A stretch of 55,815 nucleotides of DNA, from IMG/VR virus record IMGVR_UViG_3300013126_000040, positions 1 to 55,815 of that record, one strand, 5' to 3'. Origin of the DNA: a virus. A program made the position numbers and the translations under genes. Positions 5,049-32,876 of the stretch are shown here, piece by piece; position 1 is the stretch's first letter, and every line of letters begins with the position of its first letter. The notes beneath the pieces were generated by a model. It was not told where the DNA came from. It saw only the letters and a program-made list of their open reading frames with translations, and did no database searches.

Positions 5049-5082
5049 GTATAAAAAAATAAGTTAAAATACAAGAAATTAA

Positions 5083-6219: not shown

Positions 6220-6248
6220 TATATAGATAGATAAATAATTAAACTTAA

Positions 6249-6284: not shown

Positions 6285-6285
6285 G

Positions 6286-6311: not shown

Positions 6312-6319
6312 AAAATATT

Positions 6320-6550
6320 ATGGAAAAAGGTGACCCAAAATTAAGGGAATATGTATTATTCCAATTTCGTAGAAAAATTACTAATTTATATAAACATTGT
6401 CTTTTTATTCTTGAAGATGCTGTAAATTCTCAATATAATATGGATAATGAATCGTATCAAAAATATCGCAAAAGAATATTGGATCACGGAAATGATACTA
6501 TTCGAGAAATAGAAGAGGAACTGGAGAAATTTGATTTTAATCTAAAATGA
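6320..6550 (+). CDS. Small helical protein of tail operon
   Basis: A 76-residue, highly charged, probably all-helical protein (RKRILDHGNDTIREIEEELE). It lies between the tail tube and the chaperone and tape measure genes, starts after AAGGAAAAAGG, and overlaps the next gene by ATGA. No family was recognised. A minor tail or assembly role is inferred from position only. Confidence 0.6.
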   Translation: MEKGDPKLREYVLFQFRRKITNLYKHCLFILEDAVNSQYNMDNESYQKYRKRILDHGNDTIREIEEELEKFDFNLK

Positions 6551-8610: not shown

Positions 8611-8652
8611 GCAGAATATTATATATACTAGCCTAATATTTTTCCAATAAAT

Positions 8653-8678
8653 GTGTAATTTATGATAGGAAAAAGGTT
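8653..8678 (+). promoter_or_regulatory. GTGTAAT element with ribosome binding site before tape measure gene
   Basis: GTGTAAT at 8653-8659 is followed by AGGAAAAAGG (8667-8676), then the ATG at 8682. Spacing and ribosome binding sequence closely match the copy at 6286, which supports one shared late element. Confidence 0.5.
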
Positions 8679-8681
8679 ATT

Positions 8682-17600: not shown

Positions 17601-18545
17601 GTAAAAAATAAAGGAGATTATGGTAAGTTAGCGGCAAGATTCTCTTCATTTTATGGTAATGATTTTAAAAATAGATACTCTTCATTTGGAGAAAGAGGAT
17701 TTAATAATTATTTAAATTATATTGGTGCAAGTCCATTTTCATCCTTATCACAATTTAATGCATTTAAGTTCCCAATGACACCAAATATGTATAGTCCATT
17801 TGCATTCGGTAGTAGATATTTTGGCGGCTTTGGTGGAACAGGATATCAATCTGGTTTTAATTCATTAGGAACGCCATTTAGTAATTGGTTTTCTACAGGT
17901 AGCCGATTAGGAATAACTCCAAGTTGGGCAAGTAGAGCAACTGGAGGTATGATATATGGTGGTACATCATATAAAGACGATGTTCCAGCTATGCTAATGG
18001 GTGGAGAATATGTGATCCGCAAAGATGTTGTAGATAGAATGGGAGAGCCTTTTTTTAATCGTCTAAATAGAGGACAAGCGCAAGGATTTGCAGAAGGAGG
18101 CCCAGTAGGAACGAACTTGCCATCCGTTGGTATGGGACAAAATACACAGCAAGATAATTCTAGGAACCAATTTGTAGAATCAATTACTAAATTAGTTAAG
18201 TCTTTAGAGCAATTAAATAAAGGAATAGAAGAGCAGAATAGAGAAGGCAAAAATCAAGCAGAAAAAACAGCGGACAGTTCAGAGGCTGCTGGAGGAGTTA
18301 CAAATAATATTAATATTAATGTTAATGTTGATCAAAACGGGAAAACAACAGATTCAACTACGCAACAAGATCAAAACTCTGGAACAGATCAAGAGACAGA
18401 TCAAGAGAAATTTAAGAAAACAATGGAAAGATCTAGAGTCCTCGCAGAACTACTAAGACAACAAATATTAAAAGTACTAGTCGAAGAACAACGTCCAGGT
18501 GGAGTATTGTATCAAGGTACTAAAGGAAGAGACTTAGGACGTTAA
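8682..18545 (+). CDS. Giant tape measure protein with M15-like peptidase domain
   Basis: At 3,287 residues this is by far the longest ORF. Residues about 90-350 form a TP901-type tape measure core (helical, with AGELARQGLTLEQTLKRTSD). Hydrophobic stretches lie near 425-445 and 1125-1165. Four GFIPNF motifs (546, 629, 902, 973) bracket inserted segments. Two tape-measure motifs of the form DDVPAML-GEYVLRK lie near 1710 and 3100. Residues about 2530-2640 look like an M15-type zinc peptidase: H2572 and D2579 in the H-x6-D motif (SHRTGYKADF), plus H2623 in GTHFDF. Tape measures set tail length and are ejected at infection; the peptidase would cut peptidoglycan at entry. At the usual 0.15 nm per residue the maximum tail is about 490 nm, less if folded insertions do not count. 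Its stop overlaps the convergent gene. Confidence 0.9.
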   Translation: MAQNIGEAQINLSVNTSQMEREVSAALKRLESRGFNLGQGINSRAFTQPLGRITGAANEFQKSLDASNARVIAFGASAGAIYSVQRAFTALISSTIEVQKSLTDINVILNAGTKTLSQFGDQLFEIAKNSGQTFATVATAAGELARQGLTLEQTLKRTSDALILARLSGLDAASSVEALTASINSFNQSALDSTQIVNKLASVDAAFAVSSADLAEALKRVGSSAQDVGVSFDELLAIVASVNQTTARGGAVIGNSLKTIFTRVQRTDVLDQLEALGIAVRDLNGNTAPAIQILTGLAQKFDQLGDAQRSQLAELVGGVFQINVLKAALGDLSKEYSIYGNALKTATNASDEAIRRNEELNKTLAALLNKTLANLTKVGSEIGALSFQPAIEKVLGGLNTALESFDVKGDSIGSKIGKGIFEGIGSFISGPGLALLIGVFGKIFLNLAKFTTDAVKTVLGLNREAQTQAQLQERINSILAQNPALVQNILNKQVSLLQVEKDILTIIQAQTQARQQSTAIATTLTRGLISKGVTSEKGVIRSKSRGFIPNFSTNKEIMGAISGGYMPGQVRSMNIPNYGRVIYNDAETVKKFSGLKQPGIMPPEGSDAGKNYKQKFKDKYGIDPYASSGFIPNFAGRPATNSQIASMIDQGYVRVTGNELKSYLKGAGGVLDPKKAIQFGAITRYDETWVPERKFNKLVYSSKADLESIAKKKGGVFEDKGGVPLDYALVYPGFQESNRFPTKGKTSRGKNIGFYAVPFPGQLKNKKNALVGPGVYGNAINALVDSSASFLTGLAGVSPSVVNSSKFKRYLKSNITQDQLGTLVGNVFEGGILAALEIAPSDRTRVLDLTAGELQKVGQTFKISSLSAGDFLGGDFKNSLSVGNRNSMADKIVNSGMRKALGFIPNFSPIEKALKTENRMGGKGVLDYQQGVGLYVRDGKTQPNFAAVMKDHPEGIQNAIQNSRQMQKLVSNGFIPNFAPAGFDPMTLFFTMQSFMGMGQNDMSEAVMKEERNKLAQILRERRAAQQLLAQAEKAEIKDQKLITTLTNEKAEFEAAESRQRSSMQNQMGVLARNPRGRIVGGFGGAAGRFAGRYGTGIALAAPLLTGIASEFVGDDVTRGGRATKAGVTGLGSIASYAGIGAMIGSAIPGLGTGAGALIGGGLGAISATTNAIKEFNDIMPELKAKAEKAQEGLNNVNAATQLLSTSLETLSSIQNNTSLSSEQRVRLQEKATEDLANSIAKLNEALPGSAAEIENLYRKVGDTAELRTKISELQAEAQKSSQAILSGTRAVASSKKFEDLVGPGFFEGFYGLLGETETVQERYKGLKPSERAQLNQDITSGAESISGLFNNLSNTERNIQSSKIQELVTTFNSKGLTGLKDLISGLVKNGEDAAYITEILNEINPDALERYFNKWLELQKSAERTEKLIADTNAKFARGEVPITRIEDLQRQFALPGGITPAALGRIDFNKMEQNLSGQKNLNFAEQFATGYRELSDSLGYGADRIKYLSEYTQQAAEIQKDWNNGAISTTQAFERLKIAIDKVNFEKNAPFMFSGERAQARQGILERQLKQGKFAEGLDPLNSFFDRFGDNAATTADKINKSFGNLAENLQTGFEDAFGAFVDGTKTADQAFKDMLLSISQQIIKEQFSIGMRSLLGAFTGGGGFGSTGGGNTGGFLGGIFNSIFGGKAKGGIIKKYSGGGYVDGGSGVKDDVPAMLTDGEYVLRKSAVNKYGINALNMLNQGGMIKGYAGGGGIEGRGYQPRPGERTMSAYINSIFSRGRDVSSYLNDRFLQANNNMVYRGGKGGDMLSKPVPFERRLSQGDAVGRLAGLEGKIIKGEALHSTPMFKQAAGYAGTSLNISFRNIAGKQFSVSSSTTDLPLASRADMVQSFYNLGDSLVMRPGPGGGSVYTQAMGMDVFGIKLKDYINAQVSDTVLNNLSPEERRLTSMTYTDGLELEAKGGRKGQAFLVRRYGDEAVRLPAPARKRINQEIKMGKISQPSYMPKPQRGAYLDSQILAKSARGLGPTSTFFDDLDMARSYSGIGQTTLGPKPNLASTMAPSLMQTAAKPSLLSRGLSLTKGLAGGLFQGLAYGPATEFLNPSSLGPIQGTLPYQLETGQISMKQFGLLSNIEKSDRAIFNAMNRRSAGGRIKGYATGGSINALLANTYDFYGAAGEKLNEYYMPEAFKTTVNAPGELSNVPALTGRFNISDLLSSRSLMDENNPMNALRTQRFLGMQSYQEQAANFKTGYNEQYRQVEEQRKEAQRLADEENARRRAAYNQQRMGTLIGGLLSVGFSAISPFLGGMGGGGGGILGGIQNIAQNVVSGIFSGAGQSGGSQTMSAYQKEMIAKQNEQAITSYQNYGFNDFRKQANLFPQFGNQGGFGGGFGGGMGGSNFAPTSSIGGFQFGVGLGAPAGFQTYFQNAQQDYLLNFASPVAPIAPGRSNLVYDFLNQNTNPFGYSRGYAKGGLIRGYQDGGIANQYLPSNALNLLVKGSDGKTYTLAQMGLTTNNTYADLERMGGQAFGGGYNNPELIYLLNEMQSGLGSQFNRVTGINDLFHMKKRAPGTSHRTGYKADFTLNDYKNGKENIINFLKGRGLKQGQDYALTYEGPGTPGSTGTHFDFKLNKTGVAKVAAMMSGMPVENIAMMQTNRPVIAGGIPSRTDLPNYLDLPLSPSASFPGASTNNIAGTNISTIGPQANPFTRINPITRALTPDGPSRSNRPYIGSRGSPVGSLMNPNKPTGIPSPFSSRGVLPSMGNRGVLPANPIQPQTGDFPTRGVLPSMGNRGVLPATQIPDISNPYFGPTRSPIMYDMGENITTAPKTVQPSQPPMGPSARATTQNFAKKVSEYFRDPLGILPSGGGLGKGAIPTIFPGRGNIPTIESPANLPSAAQKNGLPSSQVNVPGANQTPLDLSDPIIAEYVKSQSQLFEEAAQNSMMQLPYFRDLRNMVDMATGNAPTLYQSIGSLYDVKNKGDYGKLAARFSSFYGNDFKNRYSSFGERGFNNYLNYIGASPFSSLSQFNAFKFPMTPNMYSPFAFGSRYFGGFGGTGYQSGFNSLGTPFSNWFSTGSRLGITPSWASRATGGMIYGGTSYKDDVPAMLMGGEYVIRKDVVDRMGEPFFNRLNRGQAQGFAEGGPVGTNLPSVGMGQNTQQDNSRNQFVESITKLVKSLEQLNKGIEEQNREGKNQAEKTADSSEAAGGVTNNININVNVDQNGKTTDSTTQQDQNSGTDQETDQEKFKKTMERSRVLAELLRQQILKVLVEEQRPGGVLYQGTKGRDLGR
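16944..17066 (+). repeat. Internal duplication in tape measure gene
   Basis: A 42-base segment coding GVLPSMGNRGVLPA occurs at 16944-16985 and again at 17025-17066, 81 bases apart, with two base differences in the visible alignment. Each copy itself contains two GVLP motifs. It lies in a Pro/Gly/Ser-rich linker between the M15-like domain and the last DDVPAML motif. Confidence 0.85.
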
Positions 18546-21500
18546 ATATTTTGATCGTTAATAAATACAAAAGTTTGAGATAATATATCTCCACTCTTAT
18601 CAACTAAATGGATTTTAACAGCAAACATGTTACCATTCTTAATCCAAGAATCATAGTCTTTTGCAATCTTATCAAATAACTGAGTGCCTTTTTTAGAGAA
18701 CGAAAAATCTGGAACAGATAAGTAAATAGGATATGTTTTAACAATATCATCAAATATATATGAGTCAATTAAGTCTGATCCTTTCCATGTGATATTATTT
18801 ATATTATCTATATTCTTCATATATATTAATATCTTATCTAATCCTACATTATGCTCTGGATAGCAAACTATACCAAAATTAAGCGTATTATTTGAAATAG
18901 TTGGTTTCTTGTATTTTATTTGATGAATAGATTCGCTATAATCGAAAACTCTATATCTCCACGCTGCAGATCCAAAAACTCTATTTATAGTTCCATCTAT
19001 TTTGCCAAAAGGATAATTATTTCCTTTCTGATCACCTATAAATTGTGATAATATATAAAATTGTTTATATGGCGCTCTAAGAACTATAGGATCAAAATCT
19101 TGAACACAGCACCCCTTTATACAATCTGTATTATTATTTAATAATGTATAAGGGCATTCCTTTAATATACTAAATTGATTATTATTTAGACTTGTAGCTA
19201 GAAGATAGATATCACCAAAGAAAGGTACATCATCTGGATCTTCAATAACTTTAAATTTAGTTGGGTATACCAAGAATGATATCATTTTCTTTGAATCAAC
19301 TATGTTTTTTTGGTCTATAGATATTCCATCTAAAACAGGATCTGTATCTACCCCACAGGAAGATATAAATTTTGCTACAAAATAATGATAATTTGTTCCA
19401 TTTACTTCTTTGATGCCTTTTTCTAGAATAGTATCTGTGCCCGATATACCTTGAACTATAAAATCCTCTGCGTCTGGAATATCTAATATGAATTCTACTA
19501 TTGCATAAGCATCATCTTTTTGAATACCAGCACTAATAAATTTAACTGCTAGTATATTTTTTGCTTTAAAATAGTTTAAATCATAATTCACGCTTTTAAA
19601 ATCTGCAGTATTTGGAGATTCTAAATCTCCTATATTACCAGGGTCATAGACTCCTAGGTAACTTTCACTGCCATATATTCCTGTGGTAGGAACATCTTCT
19701 GGCGCAAGGAATTCGTATGTGGCATTACTGATATATTTATAAGAATCTAAACATCTATAAGTAGTTTTATATTTATCTCCTATTAAGAAATTGTTATTGT
19801 CTTGAGCGTTAGCTAATGGAAAATAATCATAGAATTCTGGTCCAGAAGCAATTCCGTCGTATTCAAAATCTAACATTCTTGCTCCGCCTTTTTTAAGATA
19901 AGAATCTCTATAATTTTGATTAGGCCAAGCAATATAAGGAAAACTTTCTGGCGTAAAGAAATAAACAATTCCTTGATAACTTGCGGCAATCGTAGAAGTA
20001 TAATTCTTTGTGTCTTTAATAAACTTATTTAAGGTTATATATTTATCAATTAGCTCTGTATTTTGAATATAATATTCTAAACCTTCATTTGTAAATCCAA
20101 TTTCACTTAAATAAGCGTATAAAGAATATGATTGTATAGCGTTCAAGTAGTATATTTTTGCAGAGAAAATATTATCTTTTAGTAAAACACTATCTGGATT
20201 TAAATATGTTGTGATTCGATATTTAGTTTCTGTTTGAGAATCTATTAACTCAACAGAATAGTTCTTCTCCGTATTATTTTCTATTTTATCTAAATTTTTT
20301 AAGAATATAAAATCGTCAGAATAACTCTTAGTTTGTTTGATGTTTATATTTTGTTCATATTTTTGAGGTATAATCACTATAGATTCTAAACCAATATCAA
20401 CAGGAAGCATATCTCCTTTGATTTCAAAAATAATCTTATTATCTTCTAATCTTTTATAATTCTTAAACATTTTTGTTACATTATTTCTAGAGATACTATT
20501 ATGTTGTATTTTTACTATCTTATATCCATCTTGATTTGTATATCTTTCTATATCATTAGCTCTATTAATATTCCCACCAGCAGAAGAGAAGCCGTCTTCA
20601 TCTATTGCTTCTGCAGTTATGTAATATGAATTATAATGACCTGGTTCACTTACTCTTATGTAATCGGTTGGTCTTTCTCCAGTCGTTCCGGTTAGATTAA
20701 GTCTCTTATGTAAGAAAGATTCGGGTGTATCCATCTCTGGATTAAACAATATCGTATTTTCCTCAGAAGAGCCTTTGATATATTTAGTATTAGAAGTTAG
20801 AAATGAGCTATAATTACTACTATAATCAAAAATAAAATATCTATTATTGTCCGAAGGTATCGAAGTGTATTCTGGGGAGCGAATAATATTCGTATCTGAA
20901 ATGGAAATACTCTCATTTACAGAGAAATCTTTATTTATCGAATTACCAGCGGATTGAAAAGCGTAGACATCATTTGATGTGTTTCTTAGTATAGTTTGAT
21001 CAAAAAGAATACCGCTGTTATTTTCTAAGGCTGGAATTACTCGATTATATATTCTAGTATATTTATTTTTAAAATAAGGAGAGAAGTCTTTGTAGAGAAA
21101 GCCTTCGACATTTGCATATTCTGGAGTTGTAGGAGAAGAATAATTTATTTGATATCCTAATAGAGCATAAGGCTCGTTTATAGTAACCACACTTGAATTG
21201 TTACATGATTTCATCGAGCCACTAGAATAATAATTTAAATTTTGTAGACTAACTTCTTTTATTAAATTTTGATAGGGAATCAGACCAGTAAATAAGACCC
21301 CAGAAGATTCTAATCCTAAATTATTCTTAGCAAAAACTGTCAAATAATGTAAACCTGTGTTTTTAGGTATATAATAGAAATATTGATCTGTTTCAGAAAA
21401 CGGTAGTTCTTTTATCAAAAAATTAGAAGGATTATTATTGGGCTCTAAATTGTAAGTATAGTCGCTAAGATATATATTATAACCTTCTCTATTTTCTTTG

Positions 21501-21985
21501 CTTTGTATTGGTTTAATTCTAATTTTAAAGCCTTGAGTATTTTTAGTAATATTAATTACATCAGCTTCTATGGATGGAATATCGGTATCTAAAACCTGAA
21601 ATTCTAAAACATAATTAGCGTCGGAACCTAGCTGCTGTACTCTCAATGTATAATTACCAGGATTATAAGGTGCTGCAACTGATAAAACTTCTTGATTTAT
21701 ATTTCCCGATCCAAAATGCTGTTGGGCCAACATTAAGCCAGGATTATCTCCTACAGTCCATGCGGAACCAGATTGAATGCCCAACCAAGCAACATTATCA
21801 GAAGAACTATAACCTCTAAGAAAAATTTTATCTAATATTTGATTATTCTTTACAAGGAAGGTAAAATAATCACTATTTCCAGCTACAAAACCAATGACAA
21901 AGTCATTACCGTTATTTAAAGTTACAACAGTTGGCGAATCCGTAGAATTAGAAAAAGGGCCGTCTATATTCTCATCCCATATCAT
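18542..21985 (-). CDS. Large tail-tip beta-sandwich protein
   Basis: A 1,147-residue protein preceded by AGGAAAAGGAG. Residues about 20-130 resemble a bacterial pre-peptidase C-terminal (PPC) beta-sandwich, with FVAGNSDYFTFLV followed by GNYTLRVQQLGSDANYVLEF. Residues about 135-240 look like a fibronectin-III-type module, and further beta-rich modules follow with no catalytic motif. A CPYTL-CIKGCC cysteine cluster lies near 960. It follows the J-like gene in the minus-strand tail-tip operon, the place of a central fibre or distal tip protein in lambda-like tails. Receptor binding is inferred. Its stop codon overlaps the stop of the convergent tape measure gene, leaving no room for a terminator. 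Confidence 0.6.
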   Translation of the reverse strand: MIWDENIDGPFSNSTDSPTVVTLNNGNDFVIGFVAGNSDYFTFLVKNNQILDKIFLRGYSSSDNVAWLGIQSGSAWTVGDNPGLMLAQQHFGSGNINQEVLSVAAPYNPGNYTLRVQQLGSDANYVLEFQVLDTDIPSIEADVINITKNTQGFKIRIKPIQSKENREGYNIYLSDYTYNLEPNNNPSNFLIKELPFSETDQYFYYIPKNTGLHYLTVFAKNNLGLESSGVLFTGLIPYQNLIKEVSLQNLNYYSSGSMKSCNNSSVVTINEPYALLGYQINYSSPTTPEYANVEGFLYKDFSPYFKNKYTRIYNRVIPALENNSGILFDQTILRNTSNDVYAFQSAGNSINKDFSVNESISISDTNIIRSPEYTSIPSDNNRYFIFDYSSNYSSFLTSNTKYIKGSSEENTILFNPEMDTPESFLHKRLNLTGTTGERPTDYIRVSEPGHYNSYYITAEAIDEDGFSSAGGNINRANDIERYTNQDGYKIVKIQHNSISRNNVTKMFKNYKRLEDNKIIFEIKGDMLPVDIGLESIVIIPQKYEQNINIKQTKSYSDDFIFLKNLDKIENNTEKNYSVELIDSQTETKYRITTYLNPDSVLLKDNIFSAKIYYLNAIQSYSLYAYLSEIGFTNEGLEYYIQNTELIDKYITLNKFIKDTKNYTSTIAASYQGIVYFFTPESFPYIAWPNQNYRDSYLKKGGARMLDFEYDGIASGPEFYDYFPLANAQDNNNFLIGDKYKTTYRCLDSYKYISNATYEFLAPEDVPTTGIYGSESYLGVYDPGNIGDLESPNTADFKSVNYDLNYFKAKNILAVKFISAGIQKDDAYAIVEFILDIPDAEDFIVQGISGTDTILEKGIKEVNGTNYHYFVAKFISSCGVDTDPVLDGISIDQKNIVDSKKMISFLVYPTKFKVIEDPDDVPFFGDIYLLATSLNNNQFSILKECPYTLLNNNTDCIKGCCVQDFDPIVLRAPYKQFYILSQFIGDQKGNNYPFGKIDGTINRVFGSAAWRYRVFDYSESIHQIKYKKPTISNNTLNFGIVCYPEHNVGLDKILIYMKNIDNINNITWKGSDLIDSYIFDDIVKTYPIYLSVPDFSFSKKGTQLFDKIAKDYDSWIKNGNMFAVKIHLVDKSGDILSQTFVFINDQNI

Positions 21986-22008
21986 CTTTTAACTCCTTTT
22001 CCTGTTCA

Positions 22009-25000
22009 TTAAATATTATCTCCTAAAGCGTATTTTGTTTCATCATATTGTAAAGCTGTTACTTTATATCTATATTCTTCTTGCTCTTCAATATCTAAAA
22101 TTCTAAATTTTTGGGTTTTATCTATATATGGCTCTAATGCTGCTCCTGGATATTTAACTCCAGGATCACTAAATCCAGAAACACTTGGGCTTTTATTGTA
22201 ATCATAACTATCTGGATCTATTTCTATTGTCCAGACTGTATTTTGCATTAAAGTATGTTCTGTGTCATCTAAAGATTGTCCACCAAAATAAATTTTTGTA
22301 TATCCTTGAAAATTACCTGTTGGTTCTATAGTTACATAATTTCCAAATACATTTGTTCCTACAGGATTCGAAATTGAATAATCTGTTTCATATTTTATTG
22401 TTTGAATTTGTTTTTTCCTTATAAGAGATGTATCTAAACCTGAAATTAAAGTTCTTTGTCCGTCAGATTTAGCTACAGTAAATGGTCTATTATTATCCGC
22501 TCCAAACTCTATGACTGCATTTCCAGTTTCTGTGCCTATTTCAACGTTTCCTGCGGGAGTTAATACATTAAAATTACATCCATTTATTGCTGGTAAAAAT
22601 CCAGAAATATCTTCGTATTTAATATCTAAGATAGCATAATTTTTCTCTAATAAATATGTTCTTCCTCCTAAAATTTTATTTTGTCTATTTTGGTCTTGTA
22701 CATACACAATGTCTCCAGGTTTTAAATACATCGCTGGCAAACTGGTCTCAAAAGTAACTAATTCTGACTCTAAATTTTCTGATAGTAATGTCCATTTTCC
22801 TAATCTTTCGGCTTGTCCTTCGCTTGTGCAACCAAAAGCGCTTACTTCTATTTCTTTTATACCAAACCTAATTAGACCTTCTCTACTTTCTACATATTTT
22901 ACTGCTGGCTTATAAAAATTTTCTTTATCATTATATCTAACTAGCGCGACATTTCTTCTTACTCTTTTACTTGTATTACTATATGTAAATTCGCCATCTT
23001 TTACATTACTATTATTAAATATATATAATGGCTCTTTAGGCTTGTCTTGAGAAGTAAATATTAATCCAGCATTATAGAAAACAATTGCTCTAAAAATACT
23101 AGCCATGTCATTAACTACTTTATAAGCATCTTCTCTTGTGCTAATTAATACGTTACAAGTAAATCTAGGCTCCATTCCATCTCCTGCTCCTCCAGAGCTG
23201 ACTAATTGATCACAATATTTTGAGATCTCATAAAGAGTCCATTTATCTGTTAAATCTGGATCTACATATTTACCCAGTCCATATCTTTTGTTTGTTATTA
23301 AATCATAGAAACACCAAGCTGGGTTGTCTGTCCATCCTAAATTAAAATTTCCATCCCAAATTCCGGTATAAGTTCTAGAATAAGGATTATAATTGCTAGG
23401 TATTTTTACTTTTAATAATCTTGTATCATAAGCTCTTTGTGGAATACTGGTAAAATATCTAGAATCAAAAGTCGTTATAACTCCTGCGGTATGTGGTAAG
23501 ACTAAGAAATCATCATATATTTCAGTTACAGAATCTATCGCACTTTTTACAACTATATTTGGGTCAACACTCTCATCATAAACTGGTTCAATTTCTATTT
23601 CCCATCCCACAGTTGTTGATCTTACATATCGATTTAAACCAGTCCATTCAAACGTTTCGATATATGGTCCTTGATTTAATTTACCCGCAATTGTTAATGT
23701 TGAATAATCTCTAGCTTCTCCGGCTAATAATCTTTGTCTTTTATTAATATAATCCTCTAAAGATGTACGAAAATCACGTTGTAATTTATTAACGTCATTT
23801 GCGTATGTTGTATATACTTTGCCGTCATGTCTATGAGAATAAGTAGTTCTTCCATTAATAAATTCTGTGAAATTAGCTGGTTGTCTTTTGTATCCATCGG
23901 GTCCTGGTCCACCTCCTGGAGAATCTGGAGGCCAGAATAAAGATAATACATCATTTTCTTTACTGTATACAGTATTGTAATATGTTTCTTCGCTTATTGT
24001 AAATGTACCTGATGAGGCTCCAGTATAATTTGGATTTGGTATAAGAGTTACTTGTTTACCAATGTTTGGTATATAATCTATTCTCTTTAAGTAAAGATAA
24101 AAAGTCATTTCCTGACGGTCTACTCTTCCACTTACAGAATTTTTTGAGGCTTGATCTGCGCTGTCCCAAATAGTTAAATCAATAATATTTTTAAACAAAC
24201 TCAAAGCTTTTATGTTAAGTCTTAGCCCATATAAATCTTTAGTTAAGATTGTTAATGATTTTTTATAAGTTCTATAACTTCCATCTTGGAATTTTCTTCT
24301 ACCAAATAATTTAGTACCTACGACTTTTGTATTTGTTAGTCTACGTGGCATCTTTATTTTTGATAGTAAGGTATTTGAATTTTGATCATATAAAGATACA
24401 GTATCTAAATATTGTCCATTATTAACTTTTCTTGCATAAAAAGGTTCTTCTAGTTTTATGTTTCTTAATTCGCTTAATCTCGTGTGTCTTGGAGCAGAAT
24501 CACCATAATCATAAGCTAATCGAATAAATTCAAAATTTAAACTACCTCTTTCTGGAAAGGTATTGTCTGCAATAGGTATTTCATTCCAGTATATTGATCT
24601 TAGCAAAGAGTCTGTTCCTTGATATTTGACTATTCGAACTCCATTTTTATATCCTATATCTCCTATTTGTGCTCCTACATTTGGTACTATTTCATAGTCT
24701 ACAATACCTTCAATAGGCCCTTCTCCAAGAACATCTAATAAGGATATATTTGTTAAAGAAGTGATACCTATATCTTTTGTATCTTTTAATTTATTTCCAT
24801 ACCTAAATGCATAGTTATTTATTTGCTGCTTATCTCCTGCTCTGCTTACTATAGTATGACAATTGGCTGGAACTTTAGAATTTGGCAATTTATAATTATC
24901 ATTCCAGTTTCTAGTGCCTTTTCTATTTGCTCCATAACGATTATGAACAAATATACCTTCTGCGATATAATTATGATATTTCTCTACTTCGAAATTATAT

Positions 25001-27375
25001 ACTTTTTCAAATCCATCGGGCTCTATTGTAATAATCTTTAATTTCTTTTTATTGAAAGTATATAAATAGTCTCCAACTTTTATATCTAAAAGTAATTTAT
25101 ATTCATTATCGTTTGTTAAAAATGGATGACATTTTGTGCATCTTATTTGTGATCCATCTTCTAATACTACTTTAGTAATTGGCTCCAAATCTTGACCTTC
25201 ATCGAAAATTTCAGATATTTTAGATATTTTTAAATCTTGAGTATAATCATCATAACCATAGACTTCATCATCTTTCTTTAATTCTTCTATATTTTTTAAT
25301 CCGCTTGGAGTATATACTTTAGTTCCAGCTGGAAAGCATCTGCTAGAATACGAACATGAATATACATCTCCTGCTTGTGTAGTATATGTACCTATATACA
25401 TAGTAAATCTAGTGAATACCTTGTTAAAAGCACAAGTATCAGCTATATGTACATAAAATGTATATGTACCATTTGCATTTGGTATGCCATTAGGATATCT
25501 TAAAAGATTACTTTTTGATAATCTTGAATTTGCTGTTGGAGAACTTCTTTCTAAAGAACCTCCATCAAATATTACTTGATGTTCTACTTGAGTTGGACTA
25601 ATTGTAATAGTCGGTACATTTTCTGCTTGATTTGCGCTAATGGAAGTTCTAATAGTATTCGTTGCAACTACTGATAAATCTTCTACAAATGGAGTAGATG
25701 CAGGTCCACTAGCATTTGCGTCTGGAGTATAACAAACATTCCCTAAACGATCTGCTTGATTTGTTAAAGCAAATTGAATAGCATAATTTCCTCTAACAGA
25801 AGTACTAAATTCTCCATTTCTTGCGTTTGCAGCCGTTGGATCATCTATTTGTAACCAAAAACAAGTTTCTGGGTCTACTCCTTGTCCAGGAGAAAAAGTG
25901 GTATTTGGAACAGTGGCGCCTATATTTGTAATACCACCAGGTTTTCCATCTTTTCTTATAGTTTCAAATTCATTTCTATTTATCTTTTTAAAGCTTAAAA
26001 TTTCGTCTCCGTTACTAGCTAAATTCAAAACAATTTTATTATTTTTTATAATATCAAAATTCCATGATGGTAATCCAATTCTGCTTGGATAACTATTCGC
26101 TGCTGTAGGTCTATTATTTACTGTATATGGATTAAAGTTGAATGTTAATGTAGCTGTTGAACTTGATCCTTTAGCATTAGAGCAACTAGCGTAAGCATAA
26201 AATGTACCTGCATGCCTTGGAGTTCCTGTGATATGTTTGCTTGTGGAATTAAATACTAATCCTTCTGGCAAAGAAGATACAGCGAGAATTGTATGTTTAT
26301 TATTTAATCCAGCTAAAGTTTGATTTCCAATCGCTGTTCCTACCGTGCCTGTAAAAGTTTTAGCTGATACAGTTGGTAAGGGGTCAGTAGTTTTTTGCAC
26401 GCCATATAGTATAGACAAATTAAAGTCTTTTCTATTACCTGCGTCTGAATTTGGTCCATAGACTTTAAAACTTAAAGTTGCAGTTTTAATATCTGCGCCA
26501 ATGCTTAAAGATACTGATCCACTAATAGTTTTAGTATTTGGATTCCATGTTAGCCCTAGATTTTGTAAAATATTTAAAGAATTTGAATCTAAACTGGCAC
26601 TATATTGATTGCTTGGTATATTTGTAGTTAAACTATAACTAAAGGCTTGACCTCTAAAAGCATGTGTAGTTGGGGCACTAGTTACATTAATTGGATCATT
26701 TCCATATTGATCTGTGCTTTTTATTGTTAAACTTTTAGAAGCTTTGAATGTTTCTAACTGCGATGTTTTATTTTTACCACTACCAACGCTAATAAATCTA
26801 TTACCATTTAATATAGATTCAATAATTCCAGTATAATATCCAACATAATTAATTCTATCTTTTACAAATGCTATATTCGTACTATTTCCATTTGCAAATC
26901 TTAATCTATCACTAGAATTTAAATCTGCTAATACTCCAAAATCTGTATAATTTAAATAAGATACTACTTGTTCCAATTGGACATTAAAAGAAAAAGCTGT
27001 GCCCACTCTTGATGTTGTTGTCGCTGAACTTAAAATAGCAGCAGCGGTTGGATTTACTCCTGGAGTACCATACATAACTAATCCATTCACAAAACTCCAA
27101 ACAAACCAAAATCCATTTCCTCTATCTACTCCTTCAATACTAACTTGATTAGTTGATGATTCAGGTAAAGGATTAGGATAAGTCGTGCTTGCTGAAAAGA
27201 TTGGATTATATGCGTCTACTAAATCATCTACATCTGCTAAAGTAATATCACTTGAACTAGGTTTTCCTACATCATTATATATTGCATATCCATCGTAAGA
27301 AACGCCATTTTTACCTCTCCAGGCTAGCCCTTCGATATATTTATTTGGATCACAATCTTTACATTTCTTTGCCAT
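22009..27375 (-). CDS. J-like central tail-tip protein with N-terminal Ig-like extension and intein-like domain
   Basis: A 1,788-residue protein. Residues 1-20 hold a CKDC pair. Residues about 20-675 are an extension of beta-sandwich modules; one resembles a putative Ig (He_PIG-type) repeat with GTPRHAGTFYAYASCSNAKG. Residues 680-812 are an intein-like domain (CFPAGTKV to FVHN). Residues about 815-1788 are the gpJ-like core, with the marker SLLDVLGEGPIEGIVDYEIV near 870 followed by beta-rich tip domains. gpJ-type proteins close the tail tube and carry receptor binding at their C-terminus. The gene follows the I-like gene by 3 bases, as in lambda. The long extension before the core is unusual for gpJ. 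The intein-like domain sits exactly between the two parts, so cleavage would free the extension. Confidence 0.85.
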   Translation of the reverse strand: MAKKCKDCDPNKYIEGLAWRGKNGVSYDGYAIYNDVGKPSSSDITLADVDDLVDAYNPIFSASTTYPNPLPESSTNQVSIEGVDRGNGFWFVWSFVNGLVMYGTPGVNPTAAAILSSATTTSRVGTAFSFNVQLEQVVSYLNYTDFGVLADLNSSDRLRFANGNSTNIAFVKDRINYVGYYTGIIESILNGNRFISVGSGKNKTSQLETFKASKSLTIKSTDQYGNDPINVTSAPTTHAFRGQAFSYSLTTNIPSNQYSASLDSNSLNILQNLGLTWNPNTKTISGSVSLSIGADIKTATLSFKVYGPNSDAGNRKDFNLSILYGVQKTTDPLPTVSAKTFTGTVGTAIGNQTLAGLNNKHTILAVSSLPEGLVFNSTSKHITGTPRHAGTFYAYASCSNAKGSSSTATLTFNFNPYTVNNRPTAANSYPSRIGLPSWNFDIIKNNKIVLNLASNGDEILSFKKINRNEFETIRKDGKPGGITNIGATVPNTTFSPGQGVDPETCFWLQIDDPTAANARNGEFSTSVRGNYAIQFALTNQADRLGNVCYTPDANASGPASTPFVEDLSVVATNTIRTSISANQAENVPTITISPTQVEHQVIFDGGSLERSSPTANSRLSKSNLLRYPNGIPNANGTYTFYVHIADTCAFNKVFTRFTMYIGTYTTQAGDVYSCSYSSRCFPAGTKVYTPSGLKNIEELKKDDEVYGYDDYTQDLKISKISEIFDEGQDLEPITKVVLEDGSQIRCTKCHPFLTNDNEYKLLLDIKVGDYLYTFNKKKLKIITIEPDGFEKVYNFEVEKYHNYIAEGIFVHNRYGANRKGTRNWNDNYKLPNSKVPANCHTIVSRAGDKQQINNYAFRYGNKLKDTKDIGITSLTNISLLDVLGEGPIEGIVDYEIVPNVGAQIGDIGYKNGVRIVKYQGTDSLLRSIYWNEIPIADNTFPERGSLNFEFIRLAYDYGDSAPRHTRLSELRNIKLEEPFYARKVNNGQYLDTVSLYDQNSNTLLSKIKMPRRLTNTKVVGTKLFGRRKFQDGSYRTYKKSLTILTKDLYGLRLNIKALSLFKNIIDLTIWDSADQASKNSVSGRVDRQEMTFYLYLKRIDYIPNIGKQVTLIPNPNYTGASSGTFTISEETYYNTVYSKENDVLSLFWPPDSPGGGPGPDGYKRQPANFTEFINGRTTYSHRHDGKVYTTYANDVNKLQRDFRTSLEDYINKRQRLLAGEARDYSTLTIAGKLNQGPYIETFEWTGLNRYVRSTTVGWEIEIEPVYDESVDPNIVVKSAIDSVTEIYDDFLVLPHTAGVITTFDSRYFTSIPQRAYDTRLLKVKIPSNYNPYSRTYTGIWDGNFNLGWTDNPAWCFYDLITNKRYGLGKYVDPDLTDKWTLYEISKYCDQLVSSGGAGDGMEPRFTCNVLISTREDAYKVVNDMASIFRAIVFYNAGLIFTSQDKPKEPLYIFNNSNVKDGEFTYSNTSKRVRRNVALVRYNDKENFYKPAVKYVESREGLIRFGIKEIEVSAFGCTSEGQAERLGKWTLLSENLESELVTFETSLPAMYLKPGDIVYVQDQNRQNKILGGRTYLLEKNYAILDIKYEDISGFLPAINGCNFNVLTPAGNVEIGTETGNAVIEFGADNNRPFTVAKSDGQRTLISGLDTSLIRKKQIQTIKYETDYSISNPVGTNVFGNYVTIEPTGNFQGYTKIYFGGQSLDDTEHTLMQNTVWTIEIDPDSYDYNKSPSVSGFSDPGVKYPGAALEPYIDKTQKFRILDIEEQEEYRYKVTALQYDETKYALGDNI
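24940..25338 (-). other. Bacterial intein-like (BIL/Hint) domain inside the J-like protein
   Basis: This is a 133-residue domain at residues 680-812. It begins with CFPAGTKV (C680, block A), contains T747-x-x-H750 (block B, TKCH), then VYNFEVEKYHNYIAEGIF, and ends with H811-N812. The following residue is R813, not Cys, Ser or Thr. There is no endonuclease insert. These features fit a BIL-type Hint domain that can cleave at its ends, with canonical splicing disfavoured. Confidence 0.9.
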
Positions 27376-27378
27376 AAA

Positions 27379-28698
27379 TTAAATTGATAATGAATTATCT
27401 CCTATTGAATTTCCTTGAATGTCTTGAATATTTATAGGATATCCTTGATGAGAAAAATAAAAGCTTTTTGTAGGATAATTTTTTTCTCCTGCGCCAACAC
27501 CAATCGGAGCTTTACCATCGCTTTCATATTTATTTGCTCTTGATTGAATTCTGTATAATTGATCGTAAGAACTAAAAATTTGTTGACTACCTATGATTAG
27601 TCTACCATAGCCAATTGGTACTGGACCTCCTTCTCCAATAGTATTAACTGGACCATTAAATGTATAAGATGGTTCTCCACCTCCTGTATCTGGAGATGCC
27701 TCAAAATCTGCTGAAGGATTTGCTATCTGTTGAGGACTAACCATAGGTGGCGGTTTCATCAACAACATAGAAACTCCAAGAGCTACTAAACCTAAAATAG
27801 CTGGCGCCAACAGTCCTAATATACCCAATGAACCTCCACCAGATACAGGAGCTAATAATATACTTAAAAATACAGCAAAAATACTTTTAAATCCACCTCC
27901 ACCACCTGCCCCCTTGCCTCCACCGCCACCTCCTTTTCCTCCTCCTCCATTATGCACCAAAATATTATTGGCTATGTAAGTATGATTTTTCATTACATGA
28001 AAATTATAAACTTTTTCATTTCCATCTTCTTCTATTCTTTCAATAGGCATTACATCTCCACTTTTATGAATTAGAACGTCTCCAACTTTAAAATTTTCAA
28101 GAGGACTAAATCTATTGTATTCATTAAAAAACCAATGATTTCCTGTGCTTCTAATAATTGATCCATCCCATAATGTAATTTTTAGAATTTTATTGTTCTC
28201 GTGCTCAAATACTTTTTCAATGATATCAATTTGTATATTTTTGTCTTTATCAAAAGATAAAATTTCGTCTCCTTCTTTTAAATCTTCTATATTTTTTTCT
28301 CCTTGAGGTGTTGAAACTTTAGTGCCAGCCGGAAAGCAACCTTGTGGTCCTCCGCCTCCTCCGCCACCTGCCCCTTCTACTATTGGTATAATATCTATAG
28401 TTTTTAACATAGATCCAAAGTTCATAAACATTTCTGATTCAGATAATTTTGCAAAATGTTTTTTATTAACGTCTTTATAATCTAGAGGCATTTCTTCTGC
28501 CTCTGGAACCCATAATGGACGATGATTAATTAATATTTCATATTTAGCGTTTTTCTCAGACTGATCGATGAAAAGCTTTGTTAGTTTGTTTGTGTTAGCT
28601 TCTATAGCTCTAAAAGCTTCTGCTACACTAGAGACATTTAGATCCCATTCCTCACCAATTTCTTGGCCCAAGTATCCATGTAGTTTGACCTTAACCAT
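27379..28698 (-). CDS. I-like tail assembly protein with intein-like domain
   Basis: A 439-residue protein. Residues 1-105 resemble the N-terminal beta-grasp domain of lambda gpI-type tail assembly proteins. A glycine-rich linker (110-120) leads to an intein-like domain (121-250). After it come a second glycine-rich stretch and a hydrophobic segment (about 275-320, LGILGLLAPAILGLVALGVS). The gpI-type tail has PSYTFNGPVNTIGEGGPVPI and GYGRLIIGS. Without the inserted domain the protein would be about 309 residues, somewhat longer than lambda gpI. It starts after AAGGAG, overlaps the K-like gene by 8 bases, and is followed by the J-like gene 3 bases later. Gene order and sequence support the family; the function of the cleavage domain is inferred. 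Confidence 0.85.
   Translation of the reverse strand: MVKVKLHGYLGQEIGEEWDLNVSSVAEAFRAIEANTNKLTKLFIDQSEKNAKYEILINHRPLWVPEAEEMPLDYKDVNKKHFAKLSESEMFMNFGSMLKTIDIIPIVEGAGGGGGGGPQGCFPAGTKVSTPQGEKNIEDLKEGDEILSFDKDKNIQIDIIEKVFEHENNKILKITLWDGSIIRSTGNHWFFNEYNRFSPLENFKVGDVLIHKSGDVMPIERIEEDGNEKVYNFHVMKNHTYIANNILVHNGGGGKGGGGGGKGAGGGGGFKSIFAVFLSILLAPVSGGGSLGILGLLAPAILGLVALGVSMLLMKPPPMVSPQQIANPSADFEASPDTGGGEPSYTFNGPVNTIGEGGPVPIGYGRLIIGSQQIFSSYDQLYRIQSRANKYESDGKAPIGVGAGEKNYPTKSFYFSHQGYPINIQDIQGNSIGDNSLSI
27949..28338 (-). other. Bacterial intein-like (BIL/Hint) domain inside the I-like protein
   Basis: This is a 130-residue domain at residues 121-250. It begins with CFPAGTKV (C121), has T185-x-x-H188 (TGNH, block B) and VYNFHVMKNHTYIANNIL, and ends H249-N250. 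The next residue is Gly251. It lies between two glycine-rich linkers. It is clearly related to the domain in the adjacent J-like protein (same start, same end, many shared residues). Confidence 0.9.
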
Positions 28699-29437
28699 TT
28701 GCGCGCTCCTTGTACCTCAGAACATAACTAGTATGCTTCTTGAAGAAGTTATCATATATATTTACACAAGAAAAAGAATTAAAAGGCTGGTGTAAAATTA
28801 ATCCATCACCAATATATACTGCCGCATGAGTAGGAAATTTATCAGAAACCCCAGGAAACATCATCATGATTCCATCTGATTTATTTAATTTAATACCTTT
28901 ATCTAACTTAATAAAACCTTGATTTTTAAAGTTTGTTTCATATAAATCTTTTATATCGTCTAAATGTCTTGGATATGTTAAATCTTTAGGGAATTTAATA
29001 TGAACTTTCTCTTCTTTTAAAGCATATTCTTGCATTAATGTAAAACAATCTGATTTACCTAAAACAAATGGTCTTCCTATATATGGATTATTCTCTTTAT
29101 TTGGAGAATAAAAATTAAATATATCATATTTTATATTATATAATATATAGTGAATATTATATGCATTACTATTACTTTTATCAATTTCACTAAACTCTAC
29201 GCTTTCATTTACATGAGAATGATAACAAGCCACAATCTTACCTAGACTAGAACAATTTAAATAATCTTGAGGAGATATAATAAAATTATTTATTTTATTT
29301 TCTGCTCTGTTTTTACATGGAAATATATCAAATTTATATTCTTTTTCTTTAAAGTAAATAAATCCGCAGATTTCTTCATTAGTCTTTTTAAGTGCAAGAT
29401 TTTTAATATAGATTTTAATTTGAGAATTAAATTCCAT
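28691..29437 (-). CDS. K-like tail protein: JAB/MPN plus NlpC/P60 peptidase
   Basis: The protein has 248 residues and two catalytic domains, as in lambda gpK. The first (1-115) is JAB/MPN: a Glu in EEICGF (21-22) and a full JAMM motif with H73, H75, S83 and D86. The second (120-245) is NlpC/P60: C131 in GKSDCF and H204 in HAAVYIGDG, with a further His/Gln near 216. The NlpC/P60 part is expected to cut peptidoglycan peptides during entry; the JAB part may act as a protease in tip assembly. It lies between the L-like and I-like genes, in lambda order, and overlaps the latter by 8 bases. All key residues are present. Confidence 0.9.
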   Translation of the reverse strand: MEFNSQIKIYIKNLALKKTNEEICGFIYFKEKEYKFDIFPCKNRAENKINNFIISPQDYLNCSSLGKIVACYHSHVNESVEFSEIDKSNSNAYNIHYILYNIKYDIFNFYSPNKENNPYIGRPFVLGKSDCFTLMQEYALKEEKVHIKFPKDLTYPRHLDDIKDLYETNFKNQGFIKLDKGIKLNKSDGIMMMFPGVSDKFPTHAAVYIGDGLILHQPFNSFSCVNIYDNFFKKHTSYVLRYKERANG

Positions 29438-29441
29438 ATAT

Positions 29442-31751
29442 TTATGGTCCTTGCATGCTTTGTTGAGATTGAAATTTTCCTTCTACCGATGGGAACCCGC
29501 CAAAAGGTAATACTCCCATCAATTGAGTTCCGTCTGCTGCTAATGGAGCTCTAACTTCGAATTTTAATAAAGTATCAGCAATGTTTTCGTTTGGACCAAA
29601 CATATGATTTACTGCTAATGTTTTTACTGGAAAATTAATATTTTCTTTCCATCTTAATCTGCATCCAATTAAAGTCTTTGAACAAGCGTCTGACTCCCAA
29701 TATTCTGTATTAGGTGGAGAATTGATAAAATCTGCTGTATGCTCTGATTTGCAAACAAAATAATATTTTATATTATTTTTTTCTATATGAACATAATTTC
29801 CATAGCGATAGTTTACGCCTTGCTGCCAAGCGTTTCTATCTATCCATTCTCCTTGTCTATATTGAGAAAAAGTTGCATCAGATGCGTTTGCTACTGGTGG
29901 AGCACTTTGTAATCCTTTACAAGACTGAGATGTAGAGACGCTTACTCTTGACATTCCATCGGATCCAGCAGTACTATTTGCATTTATCACAGAATTTACA
30001 ACTCCAAACACTCCAGAATGCATTTCATTTAGTCTATCGTGTCTTTCATAAACGCATCCCTCTCCTCTATATGTAAATGGGCAATTTTTAGATAATAAAA
30101 TTCTCGCTGGCAGTTTAACTCCTTCTATATCCAATAGTGAGGCTAATTCATATACAACATTTTGAGAATCTTCTTGAACTTTTCTATCAATATAGTATAT
30201 ATCAGGCGTAAGCTCTACTTCGTAAATATCAATCTTTTTTTGATTTATTTGATCTAGATAATCTCTTGCCATATTTTGATATGATGTATATATTTGCGTT
30301 GAATTTGGACTTGTTAATTCTTCTGTTATATAATCTGTAGCAACTAAGTGAATATTTTGAGTTTGTAATTGAGCATTATTTCCTGTATGAGTTGCAACGA
30401 ATGTACAACCACTCGTACTAATGTTTTTTAAATATTGATTATATAAAAATCCTGCACTTCCCCAGCTATTAAATAATATCTTTGGTGTGGTAGAAAAAAC
30501 AGTAGGAAAAATAATATTATGTTCGCCTGACGTAGCTGATCCAAAATTAGGATTTAATTTCAAAGCTATAAATTTTGCATTTTCATTTGAATATGGATTA
30601 ACGCCTGTATAATTTCCGGTAGGAATAGTCAAATAATTTATATCAAAATTATTATTTAAAGGTTTAGAGAAAGCTGCAGTAAAACTTGTAGAAGTTTGTG
30701 TTGATATAGAATAATTAAAACTTTCAGCAATAGTTTCATTTGGTGCTCTCAAAGATAGAAAAGTAATTAGTTCTGAACCATTTTCAGAGAATGAAACTGG
30801 ATAGTTTATAGTTGAGGTCGAGCTATTGCTAAAAGATACTGAATTAAAGTAACATAAAACTTTTATTGGCGTATTTAAATCTTTTTTTCTAAACTCTTTC
30901 TCGGACATCGGAATAATGTTTGTGTATGTATTTTGTGCTGGTATTATAAAGACATCAGAAGAAAAAGCGTCAATTACATCAGAAGTCTCATTTACCTTTT
31001 CATTTACAAAAAGATTAAAAAAATCTAAAGAATTTAAATGATAAATTTGCCTTTGCAGGTTAATATCTAAAGTCTTTAATCTATCGTCTGTTCTTGAACA
31101 TGTAAATATTTTATTTGAAATCTGAATTGGTTTGACTCCATAAATTAACCATTTAGCAAATCCTATTGGAACTCTTTCTAAAGACCTAACAGTTAAAACC
31201 TCTCCGTCTCTCGATGCCCATGGCGTATCTGAGAAAGTATTAAATGGATTTACCGCTGCTGGGAAATTGTCTGGACTTAAATATCTTACAAAAGTTTTTC
31301 TTCTAGTAACTTTTGATCCAACAATATCTTTTAACTCTTGAATCTGCATTCTAATATATTTATAGAAAGAGTTAAATTCATCATCTAAAAATTGACTAGA
31401 AAATTTTACTTTTGGAGTTGGAATTGTACCATTAGAAGTTATATCAAACTGTTCTCCGTAGACTGGAAAAGGAAAATAAAGATTTCCTCGCCATTTTATA
31501 ATTCCTCGGTTAATATTAAAAAGATTAAAATCATTATGTATTCTTATAATTCCGTCTCTTACTGGACCATTTCGATTGGGATAAGTGATGGTAGCAGGTT
31601 TAATTTCATTTAAATCTATTTCATATAGAAAAATTGGGGTTGTAGGTTCGATCTCATGGATATGAGAATTAATCGATCTTTGAGCTTCTAAAGCTTGTAA
31701 GAAATATTCACTAGCTTGAACGACTTGATTAGGGCTCGATCCCATTCCCAT
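29442..31751 (-). CDS. L-like minor tail protein with Fe-S cysteines and inserted modules
   Basis: A 769-residue protein; lambda gpL is about 230. Residues 1-200 match the gpL N-terminal pattern (FLYEIDLNEI, IIKWRGNLYFPFPVYG, RRKTFVRYL). Residues about 250-470 are inserted beta-sandwich modules resembling H-type lectin repeats. Residues about 500-560 return to gpL (VVYELASLLDIEGVKLPARI). Four cysteines, C557, C566, C690 and C697, correspond to the cluster ligands of gpL-type proteins. A segment of about 120 residues between the second and third carries a CBM5/12-like aromatic pattern (YRYGNYVHIEKNNIKYYFVC, then EYW). It begins MGMG, as does the M-like gene before it. It probably forms part of the tip ring and adds glycan-binding surfaces. 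Confidence 0.85.
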   Translation of the reverse strand: MGMGSSPNQVVQASEYFLQALEAQRSINSHIHEIEPTTPIFLYEIDLNEIKPATITYPNRNGPVRDGIIRIHNDFNLFNINRGIIKWRGNLYFPFPVYGEQFDITSNGTIPTPKVKFSSQFLDDEFNSFYKYIRMQIQELKDIVGSKVTRRKTFVRYLSPDNFPAAVNPFNTFSDTPWASRDGEVLTVRSLERVPIGFAKWLIYGVKPIQISNKIFTCSRTDDRLKTLDINLQRQIYHLNSLDFFNLFVNEKVNETSDVIDAFSSDVFIIPAQNTYTNIIPMSEKEFRKKDLNTPIKVLCYFNSVSFSNSSTSTINYPVSFSENGSELITFLSLRAPNETIAESFNYSISTQTSTSFTAAFSKPLNNNFDINYLTIPTGNYTGVNPYSNENAKFIALKLNPNFGSATSGEHNIIFPTVFSTTPKILFNSWGSAGFLYNQYLKNISTSGCTFVATHTGNNAQLQTQNIHLVATDYITEELTSPNSTQIYTSYQNMARDYLDQINQKKIDIYEVELTPDIYYIDRKVQEDSQNVVYELASLLDIEGVKLPARILLSKNCPFTYRGEGCVYERHDRLNEMHSGVFGVVNSVINANSTAGSDGMSRVSVSTSQSCKGLQSAPPVANASDATFSQYRQGEWIDRNAWQQGVNYRYGNYVHIEKNNIKYYFVCKSEHTADFINSPPNTEYWESDACSKTLIGCRLRWKENINFPVKTLAVNHMFGPNENIADTLLKFEVRAPLAADGTQLMGVLPFGGFPSVEGKFQSQQSMQGP

Positions 31752-31775
31752 GTTATAAGTTCTCCAATCTCTTCA

Positions 31776-32366
31776 TTATGCAGAAACTTCTTCAAGTTTT
31801 GCTCGAACAGAATAATTTTCTTTAAATGTAAAATTTGTTTCCCATTCTCTACATACATATTTTGTTCTATACGTTTGTTCGGAATATATGTCTCCAGGAT
31901 TATAAGCAAAAGCATAAACACCAGACCTTTGCTTTAGAAAATGGACTATTGCTCGCGCTTCTCTAGATGTTCTTTGATCAAAATTTAATTGAAGAGTTTT
32001 TAAATCTGGATTAATACTTTTTGCTATTCTTTGTTCATATCCATTTCCGAATCTAATTGTAGTTACGCTAGGTTTATGTTGAATTGTAGAAGTATAAGAA
32101 GGAGTCCAAACAAATTTTGTAATTCTTATATTATTAGATAAAGTTATTACTCCTCCCCAATATGCGCCTCCAGAATTTGTATCTGGTTCACTTTCTACTG
32201 TTTTAAAATGATCCTTTAAACAATACCAAAAGTCACCTTTGTATTTCACAATATCATTCTTTAAAAAATTATGTCCTAGGGATTTATTGGCCCATTGAAC
32301 CATAGGGTCATTAATAGAGCCCGTATCCTCTTGTCTCAAATCAATTCTTGGTATGCCCATGCCCAT
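31776..32366 (-). CDS. M-like minor tail protein with carbohydrate-binding-like insert
   Basis: A 196-residue protein whose C-terminal 115 residues match lambda gpM-type proteins: WTPSYTST, TTIRFGNGYEQRI, a strand ending LQLNFDQRTSREA, and FVCREW-type KYVCREWETNF. The N-terminal 80 residues are an addition holding a CBM5/12-like pattern (NDIVKYKGDFWYCLKDHF, then AYWG). Ribosome binding site AAGGAAA. gpM-type proteins form a ring at the distal tail tip. It is the first recognisable gene of the minus-strand tip operon in M-L-K-I-J order. Confidence 0.9.
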   Translation of the reverse strand: MGMGIPRIDLRQEDTGSINDPMVQWANKSLGHNFLKNDIVKYKGDFWYCLKDHFKTVESEPDTNSGGAYWGGVITLSNNIRITKFVWTPSYTSTIQHKPSVTTIRFGNGYEQRIAKSINPDLKTLQLNFDQRTSREARAIVHFLKQRSGVYAFAYNPGDIYSEQTYRTKYVCREWETNFTFKENYSVRAKLEEVSA

Positions 32367-32381
32367 ATATTTTTTCCTTAA

Positions 32382-32876
32382 TTATGAAGTATAATTCAAA
32401 ATCTTATCAATTAATACGCTCATGTCTTTTAATGTGATTTTTACTTTATGGCCTTTTTTATAATATAAAAGTAAATCAGCTGGAGTTAATTCGTTTGTGC
32501 TAATATTAAATCTATTTTTAGCCCATTCAAATGCGAACTTCATATTTTCTATTTTTAAATCATCAATCTTCTCTATTTTATCTACAAGTAATTCACAGTA
32601 AAATATATTACCATCTGGCCTATGTAAATTATATTTTGTAATTTGATCTACATTAGGTATCTCTGGATGAAGATAATCTGGGAATTCGGCAATATCATTA
32701 GAATTTAGCTTCCTAATAAAAACGACTTTTTCTATGGCCCCATCTTGGTTTCTTTGAATATGATATAAATTATTCTCTATATACCATGTTAACCAATTTT
32801 TAAAGCAGTAAACCTTCGCCTCCTCTACATTCTCAGATAGTAAGAATGTGTATAATTCTTCGTATATTCCTTGCAT
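32382..32876 (-). CDS. Unknown protein heading the tail-tip operon
   Basis: A 164-residue protein preceded by AAAAGGAG. It has charged helical ends and an aromatic N-terminal part (NWLTWYIENNLYHI). No known family was recognised. It is the first gene of the minus-strand tail-tip operon, 15 bases before the M-like gene, and faces the divergent block across a 65-base region with two GTGTAAT elements. A structural or assembly role in the tail tip is inferred from position. Confidence 0.6.
   Translation of the reverse strand: MQGIYEELYTFLLSENVEEAKVYCFKNWLTWYIENNLYHIQRNQDGAIEKVVFIRKLNSNDIAEFPDYLHPEIPNVDQITKYNLHRPDGNIFYCELLVDKIEKIDDLKIENMKFAFEWAKNRFNISTNELTPADLLLYYKKGHKVKITLKDMSVLIDKILNYTS

Follow-up and report, generated by a model that had tools for sequence, protein, structure and literature searches.

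Type-A bacterial intein-like domains in the adjacent gpI-like and gpJ-like tail-tip proteins of a metagenomic phage

The tail-tip genes and their two Hint domains

The window analysed here is the complete IMG/VR virus record IMGVR_UViG_3300013126_000040, with a length of 55,815 bases. Its minus strand contains M-, L-, K-, I- and J-like tail-tip genes, and the identities of gpI and gpJ within the L-K-I-J run are supported by PHROGs and Pfam (Table 1). The gpI-like protein has phrog_32 at residues 1–114 and phrog_4554 at residues 300–374 (lambda tail assembly protein), and its residues 266–372 match the PDB tail assembly proteins 9l9p and 25vf. The hub signature of the gpJ-like protein (phrog_31; 1.7e-122) starts at approximately residue 1226.

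Several other features of the genome were noted. The tape measure gene (8682–18545, plus strand) encodes a very long product of 3287 aa and faces the tail-tip genes (18542–32876, minus strand), an opposite-strand arrangement that differs from the one-strand order of lambda. The gpL-like protein (29442–31751, minus strand; 769 aa) has signatures at residues 24–165 and 517–570 with ~350 extra residues between them. A protein of 1835 aa (37301–42808, plus strand), whose residues 1446–1506 form an H-type lectin domain, is probably a receptor-binding structure. The DNA Polymerase III alpha subunit is encoded by two minus-strand genes, one for a PHP-domain protein (50770–51531) and one for the polymerase/finger part (47329–49869).

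Table 1. Coordinates of the tail-tip genes, intein-like domains and flanking regions in the window.
Feature	Coordinates	Strand	Basis
gpK-like protein, JAB (JAMM) + NlpC/P60 peptidase	28691..29437	-	Pfam Prok-JAB, NLPC_P60
gpI-like tail assembly/plug protein, 439 aa	27379..28698	-	phrog_32, phrog_4554, PDB 9l9p/25vf
gpI ubiquitin-like beta-grasp domain, residues 1–106	28381..28698	-	AlphaFold2 model, strand/helix order
I-BIL, type-A bacterial intein-like Hint domain, C121 to N250, 130 residues	27949..28338	-	
I-BIL C-flank, Gly/Lys-rich (GGGGK...GGK)	27889..27948	-	alignment
gpI C-terminal part, transmembrane-like helices + plug	27382..27888	-	model; T1-like tail assembly protein match
gpJ-like tail-tip hub protein, 1788 aa	22009..27375	-	phrog_31, Phage-tail_3
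gpJ N-terminal extension, residues 1–679, tandem Ig/cadherin-like	25339..27375	-	
J-BIL, type-A bacterial intein-like Hint domain, C680 to N812, 133 residues	24940..25338	-	
gpJ hub core behind J-BIL, residues 813–1788	22012..24939	-	phrog_31, phrog_2589, Pfam Phage-tail_3

A preliminary description of this DNA had placed an intein-like domain in each of the neighbouring I-like and J-like proteins, and its coordinates, open reading frames and residues are all correct. As it stated, both bacterial intein-like (BIL) domains begin with CFPAGTKV, contain a T-x-x-H block B (TGNH in the I-BIL and TKCH in the J-BIL) and end with VHN; an endonuclease is absent, as none fits within 130 or 133 residues, and the +1 residue is Gly after the I-BIL and Arg after the J-BIL. 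The nucleophile for canonical splicing is thus missing as described, although splicing is not thereby ruled out, because type-A BILs can splice (PMC4031507).

Pfam matches of both domains are far beyond chance, the J-BIL matching Intein_splicing at 5.8e-13 and the I-BIL matching PT-HINT at 7.2e-11. When a profile built from 16 of the I and J domains was searched against the PDB, the best match was a Clostridium thermocellum type-A BIL (2lwy; 2.8e-19). In an AlphaFold2 model of gpI built from a 17-row alignment, the Hint domain at residues 121–250 is confident (mostly pLDDT 80–96), and Foldseek returns 2lwy as the best match of the modelled I-BIL (1.2e-12; TM 0.86 over target), followed by BIL2 of the Tetrahymena BUBL1 locus. 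The Hint fold of the J-BIL is assigned from the sequence profile only, and that of the I-BIL also from the model. The type-A signature is a C-terminal His-Asn without a +1 nucleophile, and these domains yield mostly cleavage products with splicing as a side reaction (PMC4031507). Judged by sequence, and for the I-BIL also by predicted fold, both phage domains belong to the type-A BILs, and their active sites are intact and conserved. They share with type-A BILs such as 2lwy the Hint fold, C1, TxxH and C-terminal His-Asn, the absence of a +1 nucleophile and endonuclease, and a variable Gly-rich setting; unlike other type-A BILs, their hosts are conserved phage tail-tip proteins.

Conservation and distribution of the domains

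Relatives of the gpI-like protein are present at 24 IMG/VR loci, with two more, both truncated, from a profile scan. All 17 distinct complete I proteins have a 130-residue BIL with Gly-rich flanks, Gly at +1 and all catalytic residues, and none of the 17 distinct genomes has lost the I-BIL. C1, TxxH and His-Asn are invariant in 36 distinct I and J BILs with identities as low as ~34%, a set obtained with scan patterns requiring neither C1 nor His-Asn. The +1 residue in this clade is Gly in the I-BILs (17/17) and Arg, Gly or Met in the J-BILs (9/9), and is never Cys, Ser or Thr. Values of dN/dS (Nei-Gojobori) are 0.04–0.26 for I-BILs and 0.08–0.30 for J-BILs, and are similar for the flanks. Because the catalytic residues are invariant and dN/dS is far below 1, both domains appear to be maintained in working order. 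One fragment of a gpI relative (L028 5685–6122) has an in-frame stop within the ubiquitin-like domain just upstream of the BIL, which may be either a mutation or a sequencing error.

Within the clade the J-BILs cluster together (96/91), with the I-BILs outside this cluster. The I-BIL and J-BIL within one genome have 35–50% identity and do not track each other; a recent duplication or gene conversion between them is rejected, because they are so little alike and each groups with I or J BILs from other genomes. The two domains are old and have been inherited separately, so the paired device proposed in the preliminary description is too strong a term: the I-BIL is constant (17/17 distinct), whereas the J-BIL is present in only 9 of 16 genomes, and other phages combine a J-BIL with a BIL-less gpI. 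A fair wording is that the same kind of device is used by two adjacent proteins.

A search of phage I and J homologues, suggested in the same description, finds BILs in gpI in this clade only, among 85 distinct gpI proteins, whereas BILs in gpJ also occur in several other lineages. In those lineages gpJ carries such a domain at its extreme N-terminus, always together with a BIL-less gpI and always within a Gly-containing stretch (e.g. GAG-C..VHN-KGG). The +1 residue of these J-BILs is Thr (L154/L194/L071/L080), Lys (L125/L205–L207 and L120/L123/L208/L210) or Gly (L051); L203–L210 are also among the loci with a BIL at this position. L154 (8590–12673) and L158 (1984–5638) form a close pair with and without the domain, in which gpJ reads MSKKIIRGAGGGGG-BIL-TGSGEGRLTTVIRGAGGGGG-KGGGG and MSKKIIRGAGGGGG-KGGGG, respectively. 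An IRGAGGGGG motif flanks the L154 BIL on both sides, so that a gpJ freed by C-terminal cleavage would retain it, an arrangement that fits cleavage. In these other phages the N-extein is only 13–17 residues long, and domain separation is therefore not the purpose of their J-BILs.

No host or prophage copies of a gpI BIL were found in the GTDB genome contigs scanned, and at the loci examined from the BIL scan the only finds were bacterial Hint proteins of other kinds. A gpI or gpJ with a BIL was not found among the matches listed for annotated phages (50,697 records). The preliminary description took the system to be undescribed, and in agreement with this we found no open-access paper that links inteins to either protein. 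The use of type-A BILs in gpI and gpJ is real and conserved, and it is undescribed as far as the searched open literature goes.

Protein architecture at the two sites

The gpI-like protein has the layout of lambda-type gpI (TAPI), with a ubiquitin-like N-terminal domain, a Gly-rich linker and a C-terminal plug, and its gene lies between gpK and gpJ. The ubiquitin-like domain (residues 1–106) directly precedes the BIL (from residue 121). Behind the BIL, K255 and K262 are invariant in the 17 gpI proteins, and model helices at residues 272–281 and 291–313 lie in the expected membrane/plug part, although model confidence is low past residue 250. Both halves are recognisable in 85 distinct gpI proteins, 17 of which have a BIL, every one from the present clade. 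Among the 68 without a BIL, a '..P-[VI]-[LI]-x-G-[AS]-G'-like motif closes the ubiquitin-like domain, and in most of them a hydrophobic helix begins within a few residues; Lys is rare in this short spacer. The I-BIL is inserted directly behind the '..P(V/I)(L/I)EGAG' end of the ubiquitin-like domain.

Iyer et al. (PMC1779556) described the TAPI ubiquitin-like domain with its conserved C-terminal glycine and Gly-rich linker, and proposed in 2006 that the JAB peptidase of gpK (TAPK) frees the domain at that Gly. In the lambda virion gpI is modelled for residues 135–223 only (PMC10721106) or from residue 101, with the N-domain not resolved and two membrane-crossing helices predicted (PMC11101478), and T1 gp34 is modelled for residues 92–163 of 199 (PMC11945409). 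The PDB chain 9l9p (199 residues), which is probably T1 gp34, aligns to the gpI-like protein from residue 266, just past the BIL, so the I-BIL lies between the part not seen in virions and the part that is seen; the N-terminal domains missing from virion models may simply be flexible. The present gpI resembles that of lambda and T1 in its ubiquitin-like domain, Gly-rich linker and plug, and in adjoining a gpK with JAB and NlpC domains, and differs in that the linker also holds a BIL; in lambda and T1 the JAB peptidase is predicted to process in trans. The gpK JAMM motif (E..HSHVNESVEFSEID) is intact across the whole clade, so the BIL is rejected as a substitute for a lost JAB peptidase and would act beside it, not in its place.

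The nearest sequence match of the gpJ N-terminal extension is the SraP adhesin (2.7e-8), and a model and fold search of the extension, with low global TM-scores, supports a general Ig/cadherin-like type only. The extension is confined to the clade; no stand-alone gene for it was found elsewhere. The J-BIL site in 16 genomes contains the BIL in nine, a continuous open reading frame without it in six, where a variable linker occupies the site, and a boundary between two genes in one (L009). The first L009 gene ends ..GDVYSCRYT followed by in-frame TAG and TAA codons, and the second starts at an ATG lying 7 nt behind AAGG, exactly where the BIL would sit. Although L009 is a single metagenomic contig, the two in-frame stops and the ribosome-binding site make a mere frameshift error less likely. 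The state of the site has changed at least three times overall on a tree of gpI without the BIL plus the gpJ core. The preliminary description had the two proteins divided at matching points, which is not borne out: the gpI site is the joint of the ubiquitin-like and plug domains, and the gpJ site is the joint of the adhesin-like extension and the hub. Both BILs lie between domains that could sensibly be separated on structural grounds.

Probable cleavage and alternative fates of the domains

Both domains are probably active type-A BIL autoprocessing domains that chiefly cleave. For gpI, the expected chemistry is an N-S acyl shift at C121 together with cyclisation of N250, which would cut within the Gly-rich joint, release the ubiquitin-like domain with Gly at its end and leave a transmembrane/plug domain that begins with GGGGK and could enter the tail tip. 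In gpJ, equivalent reactions at C680 and N812 would part the hub from the 679-residue adhesin-like extension. We infer cutting itself, the ends cut, its timing and virion use of the pieces. Cleavage is favoured because 2lwy is the best match by both profile and fold and type-A domains mostly cleave (PMC4031507), because C1, TxxH and His-Asn are invariant with low dN/dS and the +1 residue in the clade is never Cys, Ser or Thr, because the I-BIL lies at the boundary of the predicted JAB cut and of the N-domain missing from virions, and because gpJ of L009 is split into two genes at the BIL site. Counted against it are the ability of type-A BILs to ligate (PMC4031507), the intact JAB motif of gpK throughout the clade, and the short N-exteins of 13–17 residues in the J-BILs of other phages. 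Separation of gpJ is not obligatory, since six relatives have the N-extension and hub in one frame without a BIL. The two domains, one of them exactly between the ubiquitin-like domain and the plug, suggest a tail tip matured by self-processing, with a separate protease needless at that step.

Excision of the BILs by splicing, in which the free amine of the C-terminal part attacks the N-terminal thioester to give continuous mature gpI and gpJ, is unlikely. Type-A BILs are known to splice as a side reaction (PMC4031507), the +1 Gly offers a small, unhindered amine, and a joined product would work, judging by the continuous BIL-less gpJ of six relatives and the 68 continuous BIL-less gpI proteins; however, every clade member lacks the +1 nucleophile, studied type-A BILs mainly cleave, gpJ of L009 is two polypeptides, and with no endonuclease there are no signs of mobility. 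A canonical intein is rejected on the absence of both the +1 nucleophile and the endonuclease, and the BIL sites are variable linkers and not the conserved essential host-protein motif expected of one. Variable linkers as insertion sites, and gain or loss of the J-BIL inside the clade, would also suit useless mini-intein remnants, degenerate or selfish, settled in tolerant Gly-rich linkers. Such an origin is very improbable given the invariant catalytic residues, dN/dS well below 1 for both domains, retention of the I-BIL in all 17 distinct genomes and the absence of an endonuclease. Polymorphic toxins have a related Hint domain, PT-HINT, which autocleaves between passenger domains, but here no toxin domain is present and the C-terminal part is the gpJ hub or gpI plug, so this identity is also rejected.

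The I-BIL could instead form a thioester with the ubiquitin-like domain and transfer this domain to a lysine, giving a branched isopeptide with K255 or K262 in its own C-flank or with another tail protein, a prospect somewhat more doubtful than splicing. BIL2 of Tetrahymena BUBL1 transfers its Ubl to lysines (PMC8616854); it ranks second among the fold matches and lies in the same order of ubiquitin-like domain, Gly and BIL. The BUBL loci of ciliates (PDB 6y75/6tmm) share with the phage protein a ubiquitin-like domain followed by a BIL of similar fold, whereas phage gpI has a single such domain, a membrane/plug domain as its C-terminal part and a place in an L-K-I-J tail operon, not a ciliate polyubiquitin locus. 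The invariance of K255 and K262, the rarity of Lys in the spacer of BIL-less gpI and the +1 Lys of another J-BIL family agree with transfer; however, BIL-less gpJ N-termini (e.g. L158) usually carry Gly-Lys repeats, so the lysines may be plain linker. It is conceivable but improbable that the I-BIL, like BUBL1 BIL2 in Tetrahymena, serves the phage as a ubiquitin-like transfer device, activating the domain as a C-terminal thioester and joining it to tail-tip lysines without ATP or E1/E2/E3; were it one, the neighbouring gpK JAB peptidase could remove the conjugated domain.

The 2006 prediction of a cut between the ubiquitin-like and plug halves of gpI in the course of tail assembly becomes concretely testable, as the presumed cutter is built in at the predicted place and its active site is known and easily mutated. 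The ubiquitin-like + BIL arrangement of ciliates is now placed in phage tails, and self-processing domains have entered tail-tip genes in several phage lineages. Phage BILs flanked by Gly-rich stretches would, if active, also serve as tools to ligate and release proteins.

Hint domains also occur in other phage proteins. Collagen-like tail fibre proteins ending in a Hint domain (..VHN + 10–13 residues) are encoded by isolated phages, namely Alcaligenes phage Afa-NA1 (L311 4032–5462), Erwinia phage pEa_SNUABM_5 (L312 3020–4453) and Salmonella phage Sen-NF (hit H70), and constitute another tail-associated BIL arrangement. Ruminococcus phage NatCom_3870 (L313) has three Hint-domain proteins (3378–5072, 5640–6437 and 7300–8853) with varying C-terminal domains, in the layout of a polymorphic toxin cassette.
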